A DNA stretch of 64,000 nt from the NCBI GenBank assembly GCA_016235555.1, contig JACRKC010000114.1:1-64000 (forward strand), given 5' to 3'. Source of the DNA: Verrucomicrobiota bacterium (GTDB taxonomy: Bacteria; Verrucomicrobiota; Verrucomicrobiia; Opitutales; Opitutaceae). Positions 15,978-47,807 of the stretch are shown piece by piece. Under the pieces are notes generated by a model. The model saw only the letters and a list, made by a program, of their open reading frames with translations. It was not told the origin of the DNA and did not search any database. A program made the position numbers and the translations under genes. How positions within the stretch are numbered: position 1 is the stretch's first letter; every line of letters begins with the position of its first letter.

Positions 15978-16046
15978 GTAGCGGCGGTCTGTGACCGCCG
16001 AACGAATCCCCTCGGCGCAACGTCGGCGGTCATAGACCGCCGCTAC
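15978..16046. repeat. GTAG-type REP pair (REPIN-like)
   Basis: Two inverted arms: GTAGCGGCGGTC at 15978 opens a hairpin ending GACCGCCG (16000), and CGGCGGTC at 16024 opens one ending GACCGCCGCTAC (16046). This is the classic layout of two REPs facing each other with GTAG at the outer ends. Confidence 0.8.
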
Positions 16047-25002: not shown

Positions 25003-27516
25003 ATGCGCTCCACCCTTGCAGCTCTCCTGCTCTTTTGCGCCACGCTCGCCGCCGCGCGCGCCCAATCCGTCCGCTGGGAGGCCTCCGACTCCGGCTCCAG
25101 CGCGTTCCAGCTCATCTTCGACGACTGCGCGCCCGACGGCGCTCCCGAGTTGCCCGCCGTGTCCGGCCTGACTTTCCGCAAGATCGGCGAAAGCAGCAGC
25201 ACCAACATCATCAATTTCGACGTCCGGCGCTCGATCATCCATACCTACCTCGTCAGTTCGCGCCAGAATGCGCCGATCCAGATCCCGCCGTTCACCGTGA
25301 AGACCAACCGCGGGGTCCTGCGCGTGGCCGCGTTCAATGCCGCGGCCCCCGCCGCCTCGGCCGCTTCGGTGGCGGGTGCCCGTCTGATTCCCGAACGCCC
25401 CACCGTGTGGGCCGGCGAGGTCTTCGGTCTCGTCTACGAACTCAACGCCGCCAGCCGCGCCAATCCGCAGATCTCCCCCAACTTCGAGTGGAACTCGGCC
25501 CCGCTCACCATCGAGGATTGGTCCAAACCCGAGGTCACCGAGGATCCCGTCGGCGGCGAGCGCCGCGCCCGCGTCACCTACCGCACCCGCGCCTCGGCCC
25601 GCACGCCCAACACCGTCAAACTCGAAGCGGCGACTCACCTCATCAACATCCAGACCGGCACCGTCGGTTTCGGCTTCTTCACCCAGTCCCGGATGGAACC
25701 CGTGTCGGTCACCTCCGATCAGCCGGTGATCACGGTGCGCCCGCTGCCCGCCGGTGCGCCCGCCGGCTTCGCCGGCGCGGTCGGCGAGTTCGAACTCGTT
25801 TCGGAAATCGTTCCGGAAAATGCCGGCGTCGGCGAACCGATCACGTGGACCCTCGAACTCAAGGGCACCGGCAATTGGCCGGACATCGCCGGCCTGCCCT
25901 CGCGCGAGGTGTCCAAGGATTTTCAAGTCGTCCAGCCCAAGGCCCGCCGCACTCCCACCGACAACAAGCTCTTCGATGTCGTGCTGGCCGAGGATGTCGT
26001 CCTCGTGCCCACCAAACCCGGCAACTACCCGCTCGGGCCGGTGAGTTTCACTTACTTCGACCCGAAAAGCGGCACCTACAAGACGAAGAAAACCGAAGCC
26101 AAGACGTGCCGCATCGCGGCGCCCGCTGCGCCGAAACTAAACCTCACGGTCGCTCCGTCCGCCACCGCTCCCGCGGCCGAGACGCCACCCGCTCCCGCCG
26201 CCGCACCTGCTGGGCCGACTCCGGCGCAGATTGAAAATCTCAAGACGAAATCGCCCGTGCCGCCCGCCGGCCTCCCCCGCGATCCCCTGCCCGGCTCGGC
26301 GATCGCCGCCCCACCGCTTCCCGTGCGCACCTGGCTGGCTTGGATCGTCGCGCCACTCGCGTTGCCCGCGCTCGTTTGGGCCTGGCTCGCCGTTCGCCGC
26401 GCTCAGACCACCGACCCGCTTCGCCCGCGCCGTGAAGCCCGCCAGCGACTCGCCCGCACGCTCGCCCAGCTCCGCTCCGGCCCGCTCTCGCCGCAATTGC
26501 TCCTCGCGTGGCAGCGCGACGCCGCGGTGCTGTGGCAACTCCACCACGCCGCCCCGCCCCCCTCCGCCACGGGTGATGCAGGTTGGTCGGCGCTCTGGGC
26601 CGAGTGCGACCGCGCGCTCTACAGCAGCCGCACGGAACTTCCCTCGGACTGGGTCGCGCGCGCCGACGCGGCGCTCGCGGCCAGGCCCGTCGCTGGCTTC
26701 AATCCGCTCCGCGCTCTCCTCCCTCGCAACCTTTTCCCCTTCGCCGCCGCGATCGCCGCCTTGCTGCTCATCCCGTGCTCGATTTTGCTCGCGGCCGCCG
26801 CCGCCACCAACGCGGCGGACGGTCACGCGCTCTACCGCCGCGGCGATTTTGCCGGCGCCGAAAAATCCTGGCGCGCCGCCACCCTCGCCGCCCCGACCAA
26901 CTGGATCGCACGCTACAATCTCTCCCTCGCGTTGGCTCAACAGGAACGCCCGGCCGAGTCCGCCGCCCACGCCGCGGCGGCCTTTGTGCAGCAGCCCGGC
27001 TCGCCCGCCACGCGCTGGCACCTCGTGCTTGCCAGCGAAAAGGCGGCGTTTGTCCCGGCCGGCCTTGGCGCATTCCTCTCACCCGACGCCCATCATGCCC
27101 TCGCCCGGCAGGCGTCGCCCGCCGTCTGGCAGTATGCCGCCGTCGCCGCCTCCGCGCTCGTCGCCCTCGCCCTGTGCACGCTCCTCCTCGGCGCCTACGG
27201 CCGGCGCCAGCGGCTCACCACCTGGCTGGCCGGGTCGGCCATCGTGGCAGCCGTCGTCGGTGGAGCGATTTCCGGTTGGAGCTGGCAGACTTTCGGCACG
27301 ACCGGCGATCCGCGCGCCGTCGTCGTCACGCGCGCCGGCACCCTGCGCTCGATTCCGACCGAAGCCGACACCGCGCAAAAAACCACGCCCGTCACCGCTG
27401 GCAGCGTCGCCCTCGCCGTCACCACGTTTCTCGATGGCCGCTGGACCAAGCTCCAATTCGACAACGGCCAGACCGGCTGGGTGCGCTCCGCCGAATTGGT
27501 CGGGCTCTGGCGCTAA
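25003..27516 (+). CDS. batD: BatD protein fused to a BatE-like TPR-SH3 tail
   Basis: Exported membrane protein, 837 residues. It begins with a signal peptide (LAALLLFCATLAAARA), followed by the BatD immunoglobulin-like repeats (VNAASRANPQISPNF and VGEPITWTLELKGTGNWPDI regions). A transmembrane helix lies near residue 445 (WLAWIVAPLALPALVWAWL). The C-terminal third has membrane helices, a TPR segment (HALYRRGDFAGAEKSWRAA) and a bacterial SH3 domain (GSVALAVTTFLDGRWTKLQF). BatE of other bacteria is a TPR plus SH3 protein, so this is probably a BatD-BatE fusion. It starts five bases after batB. Confidence 0.85.
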   Translation: MRSTLAALLLFCATLAAARAQSVRWEASDSGSSAFQLIFDDCAPDGAPELPAVSGLTFRKIGESSSTNIINFDVRRSIIHTYLVSSRQNAPIQIPPFTVKTNRGVLRVAAFNAAAPAASAASVAGARLIPERPTVWAGEVFGLVYELNAASRANPQISPNFEWNSAPLTIEDWSKPEVTEDPVGGERRARVTYRTRASARTPNTVKLEAATHLINIQTGTVGFGFFTQSRMEPVSVTSDQPVITVRPLPAGAPAGFAGAVGEFELVSEIVPENAGVGEPITWTLELKGTGNWPDIAGLPSREVSKDFQVVQPKARRTPTDNKLFDVVLAEDVVLVPTKPGNYPLGPVSFTYFDPKSGTYKTKKTEAKTCRIAAPAAPKLNLTVAPSATAPAAETPPAPAAAPAGPTPAQIENLKTKSPVPPAGLPRDPLPGSAIAAPPLPVRTWLAWIVAPLALPALVWAWLAVRRAQTTDPLRPRREARQRLARTLAQLRSGPLSPQLLLAWQRDAAVLWQLHHAAPPPSATGDAGWSALWAECDRALYSSRTELPSDWVARADAALAARPVAGFNPLRALLPRNLFPFAAAIAALLLIPCSILLAAAAATNAADGHALYRRGDFAGAEKSWRAATLAAPTNWIARYNLSLALAQQERPAESAAHAAAAFVQQPGSPATRWHLVLASEKAAFVPAGLGAFLSPDAHHALARQASPAVWQYAAVAASALVALALCTLLLGAYGRRQRLTTWLAGSAIVAAVVGGAISGWSWQTFGTTGDPRAVVVTRAGTLRSIPTEADTAQKTTPVTAGSVALAVTTFLDGRWTKLQFDNGQTGWVRSAELVGLWR

Positions 27517-28271: not shown

Positions 28272-28416
28272 GTAGCAGCCGACGTGAGGAGGCTGGAGCA
28301 AGGTGAGTCGCGTCAACCCGCCTCGTTACCTCGGCAGCTACGACGTTTCGCGCTTCAACCGCACGTTTCCGGCTGAGCGGGCGTCGAAAAGGTAGGGCCC
28401 GACCTCCGGGCGGGTC
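28272..28416. repeat. Two GTAG palindromes in a convergent gap
   Basis: A pair with arms GTAGCAGCCGACG (28272) and CTCGGCAGCTAC (ends 28341), then a single hairpin GTAGGGCCCGACCTC (28392) closing with GGGCGGGTC (28416). They lie between genes that converge and could end transcription from both. Confidence 0.65.
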
Positions 28417-29988: not shown

Positions 29989-32463
29989 ATGCTCCGCCTC
30001 CACCTCCCGCCCAACCTCGCCGCCGCCGCCGCGCGCGATGCGATTCCGCTCCGGGTGGAGCTGAAGCTCTCCTCCGGCGTTGTGCCGCCCGAACTGCTGC
30101 CCGCACTCGTCCTGCTCCAACGCTGGTGCGGCGGCCTCCCGCCCAACTTCATCCAGCTCACCCGCGCGCAACTTCGCGACCTCGCCACGGCCGCCGGCAG
30201 CCAGCCCCTCTTCGTCGAAAACGGCCAGCCCACCGCCTGGCACCACGAAGCCCTCCTCGCCACCCCACCGTCCCATCCCTCCCGCTCTGCCCCGCCGCCC
30301 CTTCCTTCACTGCAAACCGAAAACCGAAAATCAAAAATCGAAAATCCCAAGTCCGCCCCCGCCCCCCTCGCAGTCGACGGCAGCGAACAATACCTCGCCC
30401 TCACGCTCCCCTCCCGCGAGCACCCGCTCTACAGCGCCGCCCTCGCCCTCGTGAAGGAAAACGGTTTCGTGCTCGAACCCTCCAACCGCAAATGGTGGCT
30501 CCGCGACCGCCACAAGGCCCTCAACTTCCTCGCCGCCCACCTCACCCGCCTGCGCACGAGCTTCGACGCTGACTTCACCCCCAACTTCGAACGCAACACC
30601 GCCCACCTCCGCACCGCCGAGCTCGCCACCACCGTGGAAAACGCCGGCGGCGGCGACTTCGCCGTCACCATCGGCCTCCGCGCGGGCACTGCCGACGATT
30701 CCACGCTGCGTGCCGCCGTGGCCGGCAATCGCGGCTACCTCGAATCCGACGGCAAGGTCTTCCTCTTCGACGCCTCCCAGTTGGAAAAACTCGCCACCGC
30801 CCAGCGCGCCCTCGCCGGCGATCCGACCACCGTCCTTTCACCGCGCCGCACGCAACGCGTGACTTCCGCCCGCGTCGCCGAAGCCCAGGAAATCCTCGAA
30901 CAACTCTCGCCCCACTACGCCGCGCCGGAATCGTGGCGCACGCGCGGCAGCGCCCTTAAGAACCTCTCCGCCCTGGCCCCCGCGCCCGTGCCCGCCGCGC
31001 TCGACGCCCAGCTCCGCCCTTATCAACGCCTCGGCGCCGCCTGGCTCTGGCACCTCCACCGCCACGACCTAGCCGGCATCCTCGCCGACGAAATGGGCCT
31101 CGGCAAAACCCTCCAAGCGCTTGCACTCATTTCCTCTCTCAACTCTCAACCCTCGGCCCTCAACTCACCACGACCTTCGCTCGTGGTGTGCCCCGCCTCC
31201 CTCCTGGAAAATTGGCGCCGCGAAGCCGCCCGCTTCGCCCCGCAGCTCCGCACCTTCGTCCACCACGCCGACCACCGCCTCGCCGCCCCCGCCGATTTCG
31301 CCGCCTGCGATCTCGTCATCACCAGCTACGGCACGCTCACGCGCGACCAGTCGCTTTTCATGGCGGTCGAGTTCGCCTGCGCCATCGCCGACGAAGCCCA
31401 GCACATCAAGAACCGCCGCTCGCAAAACGCCGCCGCCCTCCGCGCCCTGCGTGCCCGCACCCGCTTCCTCCTCACCGGCACCCCGCTCGAAAACTCCCTC
31501 GACGATCTCCGCTCGCTCTTCGAGTTCCTCCTCCCCGGCTACCTCACGCGCGTCCCGACCGGCCTCCGCGGCGAAGAACGCGCCTGGTTCGACCAACGCC
31601 TCCGCGCCCAGACCGCGCCCTACATTCTCCGCCGCACCAAACGCGCCGTCGCCCCCGAGCTCCCCGCAAAACTCGAGCAAACCCTCTGGTGCGAACTCAC
31701 GCCCGCCCAAGCCGCGCTCTACCGCGAAACCCAGGAACGCTCCGAACGTGAACTCTTCGACCTCGAGGCCAGCGGCGCCAGCGAGGCAAAGCTCAAGTTC
31801 GCCGCGCTCACCCAACTCCTCCGCCTCCGCCAGATCTGCTGCGATCCGCGGTTGGTAGGGTCGGCTCTCCGAGCCGACCTGGGTTCCAACGAAAATCGCG
31901 ACTCAAACTCAGGACGCCTCGGAGAAGCGTCCCTACCTTTCCCCGACTCCACCAAACTCGCCGCCTTCCACGAACTCCTCGCCGAAGCCGTCGACGACGG
32001 CCACCGCGTGCTCGTGTTCTCGCAGTTCACCTCGCTGCTCGCTCTCCTCCGCACCGACCTCGACGAACAAGCAATCGCATACTGCTACCTCGACGGCTCC
32101 ATGCCCGCCCGCACCCGCCAGGCCGAGGTCGATCGCTTTCAGTCCTCCGACGAGATCCCGCTCTTTCTCCTCTCGCTCAAGGCCGGCGGCACCGGCCTCA
32201 ACCTCACCGGCGCCGACACCGTCATTCACTACGACCCGTGGTGGAATCCCGCCGCCGAGGCCCAGGCCACCGACCGCGCCCACCGCATCGGCCAGACGCG
32301 CACCGTCACGAGCTACAAACTCATCGCCTCCGGCACCGTCGAAGAAAAAGTCCTCGCGCTCCAAACCGAAAAACGCGCCCTGCTCGCCGATATCTTCGAA
32401 GCCAGCGACGCCGCCTCCGCAAAACTTTCCCTCGCCGACTTGAAGTCGCTCCTGCAAAAGTAG
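29989..32463 (+). CDS. SNF2-family helicase with in-frame repeat insertions
   Basis: Swi2/Snf2 DNA translocase, 824 residues. The N-terminal 300 residues are of unknown function. The motor is complete: Walker A DEMGLGKTLQAL (about residue 370), DEAQHIKN (about 467), and C-terminal motifs GGTGLNLTGADTVIHYDPWWNPAAE and HRIGQTRTVTSYKLI. Three stretches look like inserted DNA read in frame: residues about 105-122 (TENRKSKIENPKS), about 380-395 (SSLNSQPSALNSP) and about 622-649, the last being a full GTAG REP pair. All lie between conserved motifs, so the protein probably still works. GTG of the cytochrome gene follows closely. Confidence 0.88.
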   Translation: MLRLHLPPNLAAAAARDAIPLRVELKLSSGVVPPELLPALVLLQRWCGGLPPNFIQLTRAQLRDLATAAGSQPLFVENGQPTAWHHEALLATPPSHPSRSAPPPLPSLQTENRKSKIENPKSAPAPLAVDGSEQYLALTLPSREHPLYSAALALVKENGFVLEPSNRKWWLRDRHKALNFLAAHLTRLRTSFDADFTPNFERNTAHLRTAELATTVENAGGGDFAVTIGLRAGTADDSTLRAAVAGNRGYLESDGKVFLFDASQLEKLATAQRALAGDPTTVLSPRRTQRVTSARVAEAQEILEQLSPHYAAPESWRTRGSALKNLSALAPAPVPAALDAQLRPYQRLGAAWLWHLHRHDLAGILADEMGLGKTLQALALISSLNSQPSALNSPRPSLVVCPASLLENWRREAARFAPQLRTFVHHADHRLAAPADFAACDLVITSYGTLTRDQSLFMAVEFACAIADEAQHIKNRRSQNAAALRALRARTRFLLTGTPLENSLDDLRSLFEFLLPGYLTRVPTGLRGEERAWFDQRLRAQTAPYILRRTKRAVAPELPAKLEQTLWCELTPAQAALYRETQERSERELFDLEASGASEAKLKFAALTQLLRLRQICCDPRLVGSALRADLGSNENRDSNSGRLGEASLPFPDSTKLAAFHELLAEAVDDGHRVLVFSQFTSLLALLRTDLDEQAIAYCYLDGSMPARTRQAEVDRFQSSDEIPLFLLSLKAGGTGLNLTGADTVIHYDPWWNPAAEAQATDRAHRIGQTRTVTSYKLIASGTVEEKVLALQTEKRALLADIFEASDAASAKLSLADLKSLLQK
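31855..31936. repeat. GTAG REP pair inside the helicase gene
   Basis: GTAGGGTCGGCTCTCCGAGC opens a hairpin closing GCCGACC, and GGACGCCTCGGAGAAGCG leads to GTCCCTAC at 31936. The arms belong to the same subfamily as 19115-19214. It is translated in frame between LRQICCDPRL and STKLAAFHELL. Confidence 0.85.
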
Positions 32464-34740: not shown

Positions 34741-34830
34741 CCGCGAGCGCCAGCGAGGGAATCAGGCTCCCGTAGCCGCGAGCGTCAGCGAAGGAGTTAG
34801 CCGCCCCCCCCCCCGTAGCCGCGAGCGGGA
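34737..34830. repeat. Three tandem GTAGCCGCGAGCG repeats
   Basis: GTAGCCGCGAGCG begins at 34737, 34772 and 34815; the first two continue CAGCGA-type sequence, and a run of eleven or more C lies before the third. The first copy's TAG is the stop codon of the cytochrome gene. Confidence 0.75.
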
Positions 34831-34833
34831 CAG

Positions 34834-34967
34834 ACCGTGTGAGAACGGGACGGTGGTAGCGGAAAGCGTGAGCTTTTCGCCCGAACGCGGGCCAAATCCC
34901 ACGAAAACCTCACGGTTTCCGCTACACTTCGCGCGGCTGAACGAATGCCGCCGGGTTTTCACCCAGT
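34834..34967 (-). mobile_element. Family-2 MITE-like element, second copy
   Basis: 134 bp with imperfect 13-bp terminal inverted repeats (ACCGTGTGAGAAC and GTTTTCACCCAGT) and a strong inner palindrome from GTAGCGGAAAGCGTGAGC to CACGGTTTCCGCTAC. It is the reverse complement of the element at 46121-46253 and nearly the same length. No clear target duplication remains. Confidence 0.75.
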
Positions 34968-35057
34968 CTGGTGAGCGAGTGGCCGATCCGCTTGCCAAGA
35001 TTTCGCTTGGTAATCCGCCCCTTTCGTGTGTTTCGTGCTCCTTTCCTTCCTCCCACC
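34968..35057. other. Intergenic, probable promoter of the next gene
   Basis: About 90 bases without repeats before the small hypothetical gene. It contains a short inverted word CCAAGATTTCGCTTGG. No sigma-70 boxes could be assigned. Confidence 0.35.
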
Positions 35058-42365: not shown

Positions 42366-42442
42366 GTAGGTCGGGCTTTACGCCCGACGCAGGCCCGCCG
42401 CGGCGGATGTCGGCGATAAACGGCCGATAAACCCCGACCTAC
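42366..42442. repeat. GTAG REP pair
   Basis: The left arm is identical to 39255-39277 (GTAGGTCGGGC, loop, GCCCGAC). The right arm ends ACCCCGACCTAC at 42442. Confidence 0.8.
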
Positions 42443-44932: not shown

Positions 44933-46090
44933 ATGCACTCATCTCGCCTCACCACCGCCTTCCGCCGTCTCGTCGCGTTCGCTCCGGTTCTTCTCGGCGC
45001 TACAATCTTCGCCCAGACTCCGGCCGCACCTCCGCCTGCTACTCCCCCCGCCGCCGCCGGACGCGGCGGACCACAACCCACCGTCGTCTCCCCCGAAATC
45101 GCCGCCGACGGCAAGGTCACCTTCCGCCTCCGTGCTCCCAATGCCAAAACCGTCACCGCCTCCGGCCAGTTCCAGCGCGGCCCGGCCAACCTGACTAAGG
45201 ACGACAGCGGCGTCTGGAGCGTCACCGTCGGCCCCGTGCCCGCCGGCGTCTACGAATACACCTTTAACGTCGATGGCGTCGGCATGATCGATCCCGGCAA
45301 CCGCGACATCAAACCGATGCGCGCCCCGCGCACGAGCATCCTCGAGATCCCCGGTAATCCGCCGCTGCTCACCGATTTTCAGAGCGTGCCGCACGGCAAG
45401 GTGACGCTGCACTGGTATCAATCGAAGTCCCTCAACCGCCGCCGCCCGATGCAGGTCTACACCCCGCCCGGCTACGACGCCGATCCGACCGCGCGCTTTC
45501 CGACGATGTATCTCTTCCACGGCTCCGGCGACAACGAGGCCACGTGGGTCGCCCACGGCAAGGCCCACTGGATCCTCGACAACCTCATCGCCCAAAAACG
45601 CGCCCAGCCCATGATCGTCGTCATGCTTGACGGCCACGCCGTGGTCGGTGGCGGCGGCGCCCGAGCCAGCAACACGCCCGCGTTCGAACGCGATCTCCTC
45701 GAAGACGCGATGCCGCTCGTCGCCGCAAACTACCGCACACGCGAGAATGCCGCGAGCCGTGCCATCATCGGCCTCTCCATGGGCGGCGGCCAGTCGCTCA
45801 CGATCGGGTTGAAGCACGCCGACAAGTTCGCCTGGGTCGGCGGCATGAGCAGCGCCGCCGGCAACGCCAGCTCGCTCATCGGCGACCCCGCCGCGCTCAA
45901 CCGACAACTCAAGCTCCTCTGGATCGCCTGCGGCAAAGACGATCAGCTCATCGCCGCCAACCGCACGTTCTCCGCCGCCCTCACCACCGCTGGCGTGAAA
46001 CACGAATTCGCCGAAACCGAGGGCAATCACAGCTGGCCCGTCTGGCGCGGCTACCTAGCCGACTTCGCGCCGAAGATTTTCAAAAACTAA
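44933..46090 (+). CDS. Secreted esterase, enterochelin esterase-like
   Basis: Exported alpha/beta hydrolase, 385 residues. A signal peptide ([16 protein letters not shown]) precedes a Pro/Ala linker and an early-set immunoglobulin-like domain ([18 protein letters not shown], about 60-140), then the esterase domain. The nucleophile is Ser in GLSMGGGQS (about residue 282), and the catalytic His is in EGNHSWPVW. This layout is common in feruloyl or acetyl-xylan esterases of carbohydrate-degrading bacteria. A second esterase follows after the repeat region. Confidence 0.85.
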
Positions 46091-46092
46091 CC

Positions 46093-46272
46093 GTAGCCCG
46101 CTTGTCCCGGCTCTCACGAGACTGTGTGAAAACCTGGCGCCTTCGTTCATCCGCGCGAAGCGTAGCGGAAACCGTGAGGTTTTCGTTGGATTGCACCCGC
46201 ATTTGGGCGAAAAGCTCACGCTTTCCGCTACAACCGCCACGTTTTCACACTGTCTCTCACGAGCCGGGCTAC
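46093..46272. repeat. GTAG palindrome split by a MITE-like element
   Basis: The outer palindrome starts GTAGCCCG (46093) and ends CCGGGCTAC (46272). Its hairpin CCCGGCTC-TCAC-GAGCCGGG is interrupted: CTCTCACGAG occurs at 46111-46120 and again at 46254-46263, on both sides of the inserted element. Removing 143 bases restores the hairpin exactly. Confidence 0.85.
46121..46253 (+). mobile_element. Family-2 MITE-like element with 10-bp target duplication
   Basis: 133 bp with 13-bp terminal inverted repeats matching at 12 positions (ACTGTGTGAAAAC and GTTTTCACACTGT) and an inner palindrome GTAGCGGAAACCGTGAGG ... CTCACGCTTTCCGCTAC. Flanked directly by CTCTCACGAG on both sides. No coding capacity; needs a transposase from elsewhere. 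The relative at 34834-34967 is inverted. Confidence 0.88.
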
Positions 46273-46278
46273 ACCGCC

Positions 46279-46305
46279 GTAGCGCGCTTCGTAAGAAGCG
46301 GGACC
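46279..46305. repeat. Single GTAG palindrome
   Basis: GTAGCGCGCTTCGTAAGAAG closes with CGGGACC just downstream of the split palindrome and 43 bases before the next ATG. Confidence 0.65.
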
Positions 46306-46347
46306 AGTGAGCCCCGCCCACCGCCCAATCGTCCCAACCTTCCCGTC

Positions 46348-47451
46348 ATGCTCCGCCGCCCATTTCTCTCCGTCTCCCTGTCTCTCCTTCTCCCCGTCCT
46401 AGCTGCTCCGCTCGTGGCCGCCGATGGTCCTCCGGCGTCCGTCCCGGCCGCGGATGCCGCGAAGAAAAAAGCCAAGGCCCCGCCCCGCCCCCTCGCCGAG
46501 AAACCTTCCCCCGCGCATACCACCGACGGCGTCGAATTCACCATCGGCCCCGACTACACGTGGGCGCCCGAGCTCAAAGTCCGTGCCGGGGCCCCGACGG
46601 GCACGATCCACGATTTCACGATGAACTCCGAGGACAGCAAAATCTACCCCGGCATCGCACGCGGCCAGACCGGCGTCGTTCCCTACAAGCGCCGCGTCAC
46701 CGTCTACCTCCCCGCCGGCTACCAGGCCGGCACGCCCTCGCCTGTCATCATCGGCCAGGACGGCAACTATCGCGACTTCCTGCCGACCGTCCTCGACAAC
46801 ATGATTCACGACAAACGCCTTCCCGCGATGATCGCCGTGATGATCAATTCCGGCGGCGGCGATTCGCTCGGCAGCCAGCGGGGGCTCGAATACGACACCG
46901 TCTCCGGCGTCTACGCCAACTTCATCGAAACCGAAGTCCTCCCGCGCATCGAGAAGGACTACCACGTGAAGTTCACGAAAGACCCCGACGCCCGCGCCAC
47001 GCTCGGCGGCAGCTCCGGCGCCGCGGCCGCATTCACCATGGCGTGGTTTCGTCCCGACCTCTACCACCGGGTGCTCTCCTACTCCGGCACCTACGTGAAC
47101 CAGCAGTCGCCGCTCAACCTCAGCGCCCCGCGCGACCAATGGGTCTATCAACCCGATTCGCCCCGCGGCGCGTGGGAGTATCATGCAAAGTTCATCCCCG
47201 AGAGCCCCCGCAAACCGATCAAGATCTGGCTCCACGTGAGCGACGAGGACAACGGCTACACCCGCGACGAAGCCTCGCTCCACAACTGGGTGCTCGCCAA
47301 CCAACGCATGGCCACCGCGCTGAAGGCGAAGGGCTACACCTACCGCTACGTGTTCTCGAAAGCCTCCGGCCACACCGACGGCCGCGTGATCCGCCAGACC
47401 CTCCCGGGTGCGCTCGAATGGCTCTGGTCCGATTATAAACTGACACCCTGA
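46348..47451 (+). CDS. Secreted esterase, enterochelin esterase-like (second)
   Basis: Exported alpha/beta hydrolase, 367 residues, with a signal peptide (LSVSLSLLLPVLAAPLVAA) and a Lys/Ala/Pro linker. The esterase domain has RRVTVYLPAGYQAG, ATLGGSSGAAAAFTMAW with the nucleophile Ser, and FSKASGHTDGRV with the catalytic His. Unlike the preceding esterase it lacks a clear immunoglobulin-like domain. The two are similar in type but not close duplicates. The natural substrate is probably an ester on a plant or microbial polysaccharide or a phenolic conjugate; this is inference. Confidence 0.83.
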   Translation: MLRRPFLSVSLSLLLPVLAAPLVAADGPPASVPAADAAKKKAKAPPRPLAEKPSPAHTTDGVEFTIGPDYTWAPELKVRAGAPTGTIHDFTMNSEDSKIYPGIARGQTGVVPYKRRVTVYLPAGYQAGTPSPVIIGQDGNYRDFLPTVLDNMIHDKRLPAMIAVMINSGGGDSLGSQRGLEYDTVSGVYANFIETEVLPRIEKDYHVKFTKDPDARATLGGSSGAAAAFTMAWFRPDLYHRVLSYSGTYVNQQSPLNLSAPRDQWVYQPDSPRGAWEYHAKFIPESPRKPIKIWLHVSDEDNGYTRDEASLHNWVLANQRMATALKAKGYTYRYVFSKASGHTDGRVIRQTLPGALEWLWSDYKLTP

Positions 47452-47653: not shown

Positions 47654-47807
47654 GAGGCTGTCATGCATTTTTGTCCGAAAAGACGGACGGACTCCGAGGT
47701 AGGGCAGGTCTGTGACCTGCCCTTTCACGCGGTGAGTGCTTGCCGGGCAGGTCACAGACCCGCCCTACGCCCAGCCACCGCTCCGCGCAAAGTTCATGAC
47801 AGGCTCT
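47653..47807. repeat. Nested inverted repeats
   Basis: An outer pair, AGAGGCTGTCATGCATTTT (47653) and AAAGTTCATGACAGGCTCT (47789), encloses a GTAG REP pair: GTAGGGCAGGTCTGTGACCT at 47699 and GGGCAGGTC...GCCCTAC ending at 47768. One may have inserted into the other. Confidence 0.75.

Follow-up and report, generated by a model that had tools for sequence, protein, structure and literature searches.

A probable non-autonomous IS1182-family element joined at the loops of REP hairpins in a Verrucomicrobiota genome

Introduction

Hairpins as targets of IS1182-family elements and REPs as targets of insertion sequences are both known already. In Staphylococcus, IS1272 of this family inserts at inverted repeats, which it replaces, and no duplication results (Wan, 2017; PMC5678879). 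In the sections of that paper on targeting, duplication of the loop appears only as the hypothetical pathway c of a model figure, and Siguier et al. are cited on the targeting of palindromes by IS1182-family elements. TnSha1 insertions are always in hairpins, part of which is deleted (PMC4923244). IS1182 is also listed among the families over-represented between convergent genes (PMC9208149), which would fit terminators as targets. REPs are described as transposition hot spots for ISPpu9, ISPpu10 and IS1397 (PMC1525189); the words "IS1182" and "duplication" are absent from the main text of that paper. GTAG REPs, abundant in Opitutus terrae (PMC3733652), and REPINs (PMC3116915) are characterized by the GTAG tag, a small palindrome and inverted pairs that form one hairpin.

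Here we describe a locus in a stretch of 64,000 nucleotides (the window; contig JACRKC010000114.1, positions 1 to 64,000) from the draft assembly of a Verrucomicrobiota bacterium (8.03 Mb, 140 contigs, 98.63% complete). Positions 46118–46256 very probably represent a non-autonomous IS1182-family element (MITE), joined at the tip of a REP hairpin with the loop duplicated. With IS1272 and TnSha1 it shares inverted-repeat or hairpin targets, but for those elements the sections on target sites (PMC5678879, PMC4923244) report no duplication, and the hairpin is replaced or partly deleted. With the insertion sequences of PMC1525189 it shares REP targets, the element being a MITE here. The features of GTAG REPs and REPINs listed above are present as well, but at this locus one such repeat hosts the MITE and another is carried by it, neither being the mobile unit.

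Results

The element in the window

The first-pass annotation of this DNA had described a 133-bp element (46121–46253) with ends matching at 12 of 13 positions, flanked by the direct repeat CTCTCACGAG at 46111–46120 and 46254–46263. All of this was confirmed in the sequence. Removal of the element and one repeat leaves CCCGGCTC-TCAC-GAGCCGGG, the perfect hairpin that the annotation had reconstructed, and this exact empty form was found, on either strand, at five other places of the genome (C13:3680, C19:175150, C31:69738, C54:38591, C70:59343).

Alignment of the copies across the genome moves the boundaries outward: by family boundaries the MITE is 139 bp long and lies at 46118–46256 on the plus strand. 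Its 16-bp terminal inverted repeats are GAGACTGTGTGAAAAC at 46118–46133 (plus strand; the family form is CAGACTGTGTGAAAAC) and, in minus orientation at 46241–46256, a sequence that reads GTTTTCACACTGTCTC on the plus strand. Comparison of the flanks places the two copies of the loop TCAC at 46114–46117 and 46257–46260. The halves of the host stem, both on the minus strand, are CCCGGCTC at 46106–46113, identified by reading the sequence and by the empty-hairpin matches, and GAGCCGGG with CTAC, the minus-strand GTAG head, at 46261–46272. The annotation had put GTAG and CTAC at the two ends of the hairpin. This is true of CTAC (46269–46272), which abuts the right stem, but GTAG (46093–46096) is separated from the left stem by 9 nt, which makes a single minus-strand REP (GTAG-stem-loop-stem) the best reading of the host, in place of a symmetrically tagged hairpin.

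The MITE lies between a stop codon (46088–46090) and the next gene on the same strand, which likely starts with the ATG at 46348. It has no transposase gene of its own, its 139 bp being crossed by two mechanical ORFs only. It folds with −43 kcal/mol, compared with a mean of −20.9 for shuffled sequences (z −7.2; none of 200 shuffles reached it). An Rfam search of 45900–46500 gave no match. The window contains a second MITE copy at 34831–34970 (minus strand) inside a GTAGCCGCGAGC-type REP; its flanks, GGGA (34827–34830) and GTGA (34971–34974), are equal at three of four bases.

Copies in the genome and the inner GTAG palindrome

A search of the assembly with the MITE gave 53 matches. Of these, 38 (E <= 4e-21) represent the element itself, in some cases without one of its ends; the remaining matches are shadows of its palindrome or inner palindromes alone. 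One further locus with the same ends and a different interior (L031) was added by pattern search, which gives an alignment of 39 rows, with L066 and L067 excluded as inner palindromes alone. With one mismatch allowed, 24+24 end matches were found in this genome, compared with 1+1 for the reversed pattern. The annotation would have been undermined if no other copy had flanking duplications, but other copies do have them.

In a scan of 372 genomes of the order, this one included, six had end matches: 18+17 in this genome and one in each of the other five. Of the loci with end matches in other genomes of the order, four (L086, L087, L119, L120) are single ends, and at L118 a second end, with four mismatches, starts 110 bp on. 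Since only this genome has the ends in number, the MITE family most likely came from outside. As a separate observation, the right flanks of two copies, L010 (G000:C51 after 30541) and L027 (G000:C52 after 13508), hold the same other repeat over 170 bp (91.8% identity).

Inside the MITE, positions 46162–46231 form a REPIN-like inverted GTAG...CTAC pair of 70 bp. In total, seven such pairs were revealed in the window, two in the MITE copies and five others of 69–82 bp with different stems (15978–16046, 28272–28341, 31855–31936, 42366–42442 and 47699–47768), while ten base-shuffled versions contained 0–2. Two inverted GTAG-tagged arms that make one hairpin are the structure of a REPIN, and this core is found outside the MITE too: palindromes related to it occur without the MITE in this genome (L066, L067) and among the matches in other genomes of the family (L074–L084). 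GTAG palindromes therefore take both roles here, one being the host and another the cargo. The pair at L066 (1201–1260; G000:C99 ~25967–26031) is of the inner MITE type and lies in frame in an ORF of 762 aa, which we read as resembling a UvrD-type helicase; REPs inside repair genes are described for Opitutus terrae (PMC3733652).

The inner pair, together with the related palindromes outside the MITE, would also suit an element derived from a REP pair by elaboration and mobilized by a RAYT that acts on the inner GTAG palindrome, with the outer ends incidental. We consider this very unlikely, as the outer ends exist without the inner pair, both at L031 and, in many bacteria, on elements of MITE size or full length, and the repeat unit stops at the outer ends, with a duplication.

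Length of the target duplication

Over ten flanking bases, the left and right flanks agree in 22, 14, 7, 29, 26, 26, 27, 13, 15 and 25 of the 39 rows. Agreement is highest at the middle four positions; the outermost two also score fairly high, as C and G are favored there by host and element alike. Positions 4–7 hold a perfect 4-mer in 18 of 39 rows (2000 partner shuffles: mean 5.91, maximum 12), and a perfect 10-mer is seen in two, the window copy (L001) and L006 (mean 0.14, maximum 2). Thus, the target duplication of the family is 4 bp, and in the window copy it consists of the host loop, TCAC.

The annotation had claimed a duplication of 10 bp next to 13-bp ends, which would imply a different DDE family. 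Ten of ten bases are indeed identical in the window copy and in L006, but such a repeat is confined to these 2 of 39 copies. The bases beside the ACTG end are CAG in 22/39 rows and GAG in 10/39; at the opposite end they are CTG in 29/39 and CTC in 3/39. Being largely independent of the host arm, CAG...CTG is therefore part of the element, and the window repeat looks 10 bp long because GAG...CTC happens to extend the host stem. Together with the lack of repeats of 6 bp or more at elements with the same ends elsewhere (see below), this leaves the longer duplication with hardly any probability.

The duplicated sequence is not always GTGA or TCAC. Among the 12 rows without either of them on either side, five duplicate uncommon 4-mers (TGGC, TGCG, GGGA, GTCA, TGAA), and L031 has its own loop, TGAA, at both flanks. 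A perfect 4-mer is absent from 21 of 39 rows, six of which match at three of four positions; in L024 and L064 the loop is inverted, not repeated, and L014 is similar with one mismatch. At its outermost position the left end carries C in 27 of the 39 rows, T in one and, in excess, G in 11. Many hosts also have G as the base that follows the loop, so the duplication may extend to 5 or 6 bp in some copies.

Host REPs and the question of unit copying

The host hairpin has the features of a GTAG REP, namely a GTAG head, a small palindrome and many copies. Host arms differ between MITE copies: a simple string rule sorted the 39 rows into 14 with CCC-type arms, 14 with GTAGCCGCGAGC...GCGAGTGG arms and 11 with neither. 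Empty hosts of the first kind (CCCGSCTC hairpins, pattern CCCGSCTCNNNNGAGSCGGG) were found with up to one mismatch at 20 places, 13 of them exact (reversed control: 3 with up to one mismatch). For empty GTAGCCGCGAGC-type hosts 188 strand-wise matches were obtained with up to two mismatches (control: 0), and among the matches listed, GCCA (the complement of TGGC) and GTCA occur at the place of the loop in empty REPs of this second type. In CCC-type hosts the duplicated 4-mer forms the apical loop. Hosts of the GCGAGC type make imperfect hairpins; we read the 4-mer of GTAGCCGCGAGC-type hosts as standing where such a hairpin would have its loop, which the folding program supports in part. The claim that the MITE entered an older GTAG palindrome is supported.

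The relation between MITE and host leaves room for a different history, in which the REP and MITE block of ~180 bp was copied as one unit, either by a RAYT acting on its GTAG ends or through duplication of a larger repeat, the flanking repeats being inherited from few old insertions. In its favor, a diagnostic base that defines MITE subtypes tracks the host REP type (13:1 vs. 2:12, p 7e-5, in 28 of 39 rows; L031 is counted among the 12, and L069, which lacks one end, is the single row). Besides, in a comparison of alignments of at least 45 bp, seven GCGAGC-type copies (L012, L013, L014, L017, L020, L025, L064) shared 45–85 bp including the REP, reaching or nearly reaching the element, and the genome contains ten matches to Y1_Tnp, the RAYT-type domain, none of them so far tied to this type of REP. 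However, CCC-type hosts differ in their arms and in loop orientation, and what they share at the edge is REP-sized (46 and 48 bp; L001/L002 and L006/L005); longer stretches that CCC-type rows have in common are found at a greater distance and resemble other repeats. Within a locus, the left and the right copy of the loop agree beyond shuffled partners, and both orientations occur in GCGAGC-type hosts. We consider copying of the block as a whole to be unlikely, and read the history as one of many insertions, in which a larger repeat was also copied to some extent in one branch. The sharing around the seven GCGAGC-type REPs suggests such a larger repeat, with REP, MITE and inner palindrome inside it.

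Same ends in other bacteria and the transposase

Scanning genome contigs for CAGACTGTGTGAAAAC gave at least 116 stretches, and 80 of them were analyzed. With three mismatches allowed in the second end, these contained 33 end pairs within 2.5 kb, 32 of them with usable flanks. Among the matches listed, the same ends are found on MITE-sized and on full-length elements in many bacteria, the latter being 1.5–1.7 kb long. Nine ORFs between such ends were scanned. Six (L134, L152, L123, L166, L190, L191) pass the cut-off of the NCBIfam IS1182 model (270 bits) with 386.6–462.6 bits, two are below it (L173, a 325-aa piece, 229.7 bits; L159, 138 aa, 29.8 bits), and the ORF of L169 had no match in the family scan. 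Thus, the ends of the MITE match those of full-length IS1182 elements of other bacteria. A tblastn search of plasmids with the L134 transposase led to features named IS1182, ISPpu20 and ISPmo1, and ISPpu20 has the same 16-bp ends with one mismatch in each.

The duplications are of the same kind as well: perfect 4-bp repeats flank 17 of the 32 outside pairs, compared with 18 of 39 rows in this genome, and ISPpu20-like elements have 4 or 5 bp. None of the 32 pairs has a repeat of 6 bp or more. Two outside loci may be mentioned separately. In L169, from a Nitrospirota MAG, several copies of the ends stand side by side, one inserted beside the end of another; in L136 (4325–4811), from an Akkermansia muciniphila MAG, a 487-bp element with the same ends sits at the tip of a GCGGCC hairpin and is flanked by a TGAA duplication.

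An autonomous partner in the same assembly is usual for a MITE, though not strictly required; no IS1182 transposase above the cut-off was found in this one. The IS1182 model gave four weak matches, the best of 60.8 bits, and had matches in 6 of 14 control genomes. The L134 transposase protein had no match in this genome, an empty answer that shows little in a search of this type. Hence, of the annotation's proposal that a DDE transposase with matching ends acts from elsewhere in the genome, the enzyme type is probable, IS1182 being indicated by the ends in other bacteria, while the location did not find support. The helper was most likely lost, left unassembled or carried on a plasmid.

Several candidates were rejected. 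The DDE_Tnp_1 loci of this genome (L114–L117) and four of its ten Y1_Tnp loci (L070–L073) have no MITE end within four mismatches of 16. Nine loci of relatives matching the IS1182 model (L237–L243, L247, L250) have no end with fewer than four mismatches of 15; in L237 there is a facing end pair at four mismatches of 15 (GAGACTGTCGGGAAA). MITEPsy1 also makes 4-bp duplications but has other ends (PMC3189936).

Hairpin tips as targets

We then compared insertion sites with random 44-base sites for a stem of at least 6 at the right place. Such stems were found in 5 of 17 outside pairs with a perfect 4-mer and in 6 of all 32, compared with 56 of 4800 random sites, and in 5 of 18 perfect-4-mer rows and 13 of all 39 rows of this genome, compared with 65 of 4500. 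For the perfect 4-mers the enrichment has p values of 1.5e-6 (outside) and 5.7e-6 (this genome), the sites of each set being partly interdependent; the stem at the outside locus L169, which lacks a repeat, consists of the end of another element. A folding program gave a weak signal outside (8/17 vs. a background of 542/1597) and a moderate one at the sites of this genome (13/18 vs. 414/1200).

Clearer cases came from plasmids, where 13 copies were considered and hairpins were sought only where the repeat had at least three bases. L262 has no right end, and L263, L268 and L272 are at the same sites as L260, L261 and L271; these four were left out. Six of the nine remaining copies (L260, L261, L264, L266, L267, L269) are ISPpu20-like, being 66–84% identical to the L134 transposase. 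Together with L134 and L152 they make eight distinct full-length sites, and all eight are hairpin tips with stems of 8–13 and duplications of 4–5 bp. In our reading, seven of the eight have A and T tracts, like an intrinsic terminator.

With L136, L145 and L199 added, eleven sites have stems of at least 6. A loop of four bases goes with a duplication of 4 bp in four of four sites; a loop of five with 5 bp in three of four sites and 4 bp in the other; and three-base loops with duplications of 4, 4 and 5 bp. The duplication is exactly the loop in 7 of the 11. Six loci with similar ends (L123, L166, L190, L265, L270, L271) have 4-bp duplications (GGTC, TGGC, GGCC) and stems of 4 at most; L265, L270 and L271 are 44–45% identical to the L134 transposase. 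An end of this type alone is therefore no proof of tip targeting, and the helper of the MITE may have belonged to either group.

Discussion

Among the closest described counterparts of the MITE are ISPpu20 and similar IS1182-family elements of Pseudomonas, which like it have the 16-bp ends (one mismatch each) and a loop duplicated at a hairpin tip. They differ from it in being full-length with a transposase, in using mostly terminator-like hairpins and in duplicating 4 or 5 bp. In the literature searched, which did not extend to subscription papers or ISfinder, no report of loop duplication by IS1182, or of IS1182 MITEs in REPs, was found.

The following course of events can be suggested. An IS1182 DDE transposase, once present in the genome or supplied from outside, would pair the two 16-bp ends, and the element would be joined across the tip of the target hairpin, which may be an extruded cruciform or a single strand. 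Staggered joining around the loop would then lead to its duplication by repair. REPs would have offered suitable targets, being small and abundant hairpins whose loops have four bases. The MITE presumably had its inner GTAG pair before it spread. The nesting thus gives an order: the host REP, the MITE with its inner pair, and insertion at the REP tip.

In this case a single nested structure combines MITEs with REPs and REP pairs. Copying of the loop is a useful clue to target choice: as the loop is duplicated both in a genome with 39 copies and in clean Pseudomonas plasmid copies, the positions at which the hairpin is cut can be read from the sequence. This leads to a simple prediction, that the length of the duplication follows the length of the loop. 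In a broader view, which we hold to be slightly more likely than not, the branch of IS1182 comprising ISPpu20-like elements and such MITEs would select its targets by the shape of the DNA, with cuts placed around the loop of the hairpin. Four-base loops would then give duplications of 4 bp and five-base loops usually of 5 bp, and at three-base loops the duplication would slightly exceed the loop. If so, this branch would duplicate the loop where its counterpart IS1272 replaces the hairpin, which would explain why REPs and terminators alike are colonized.
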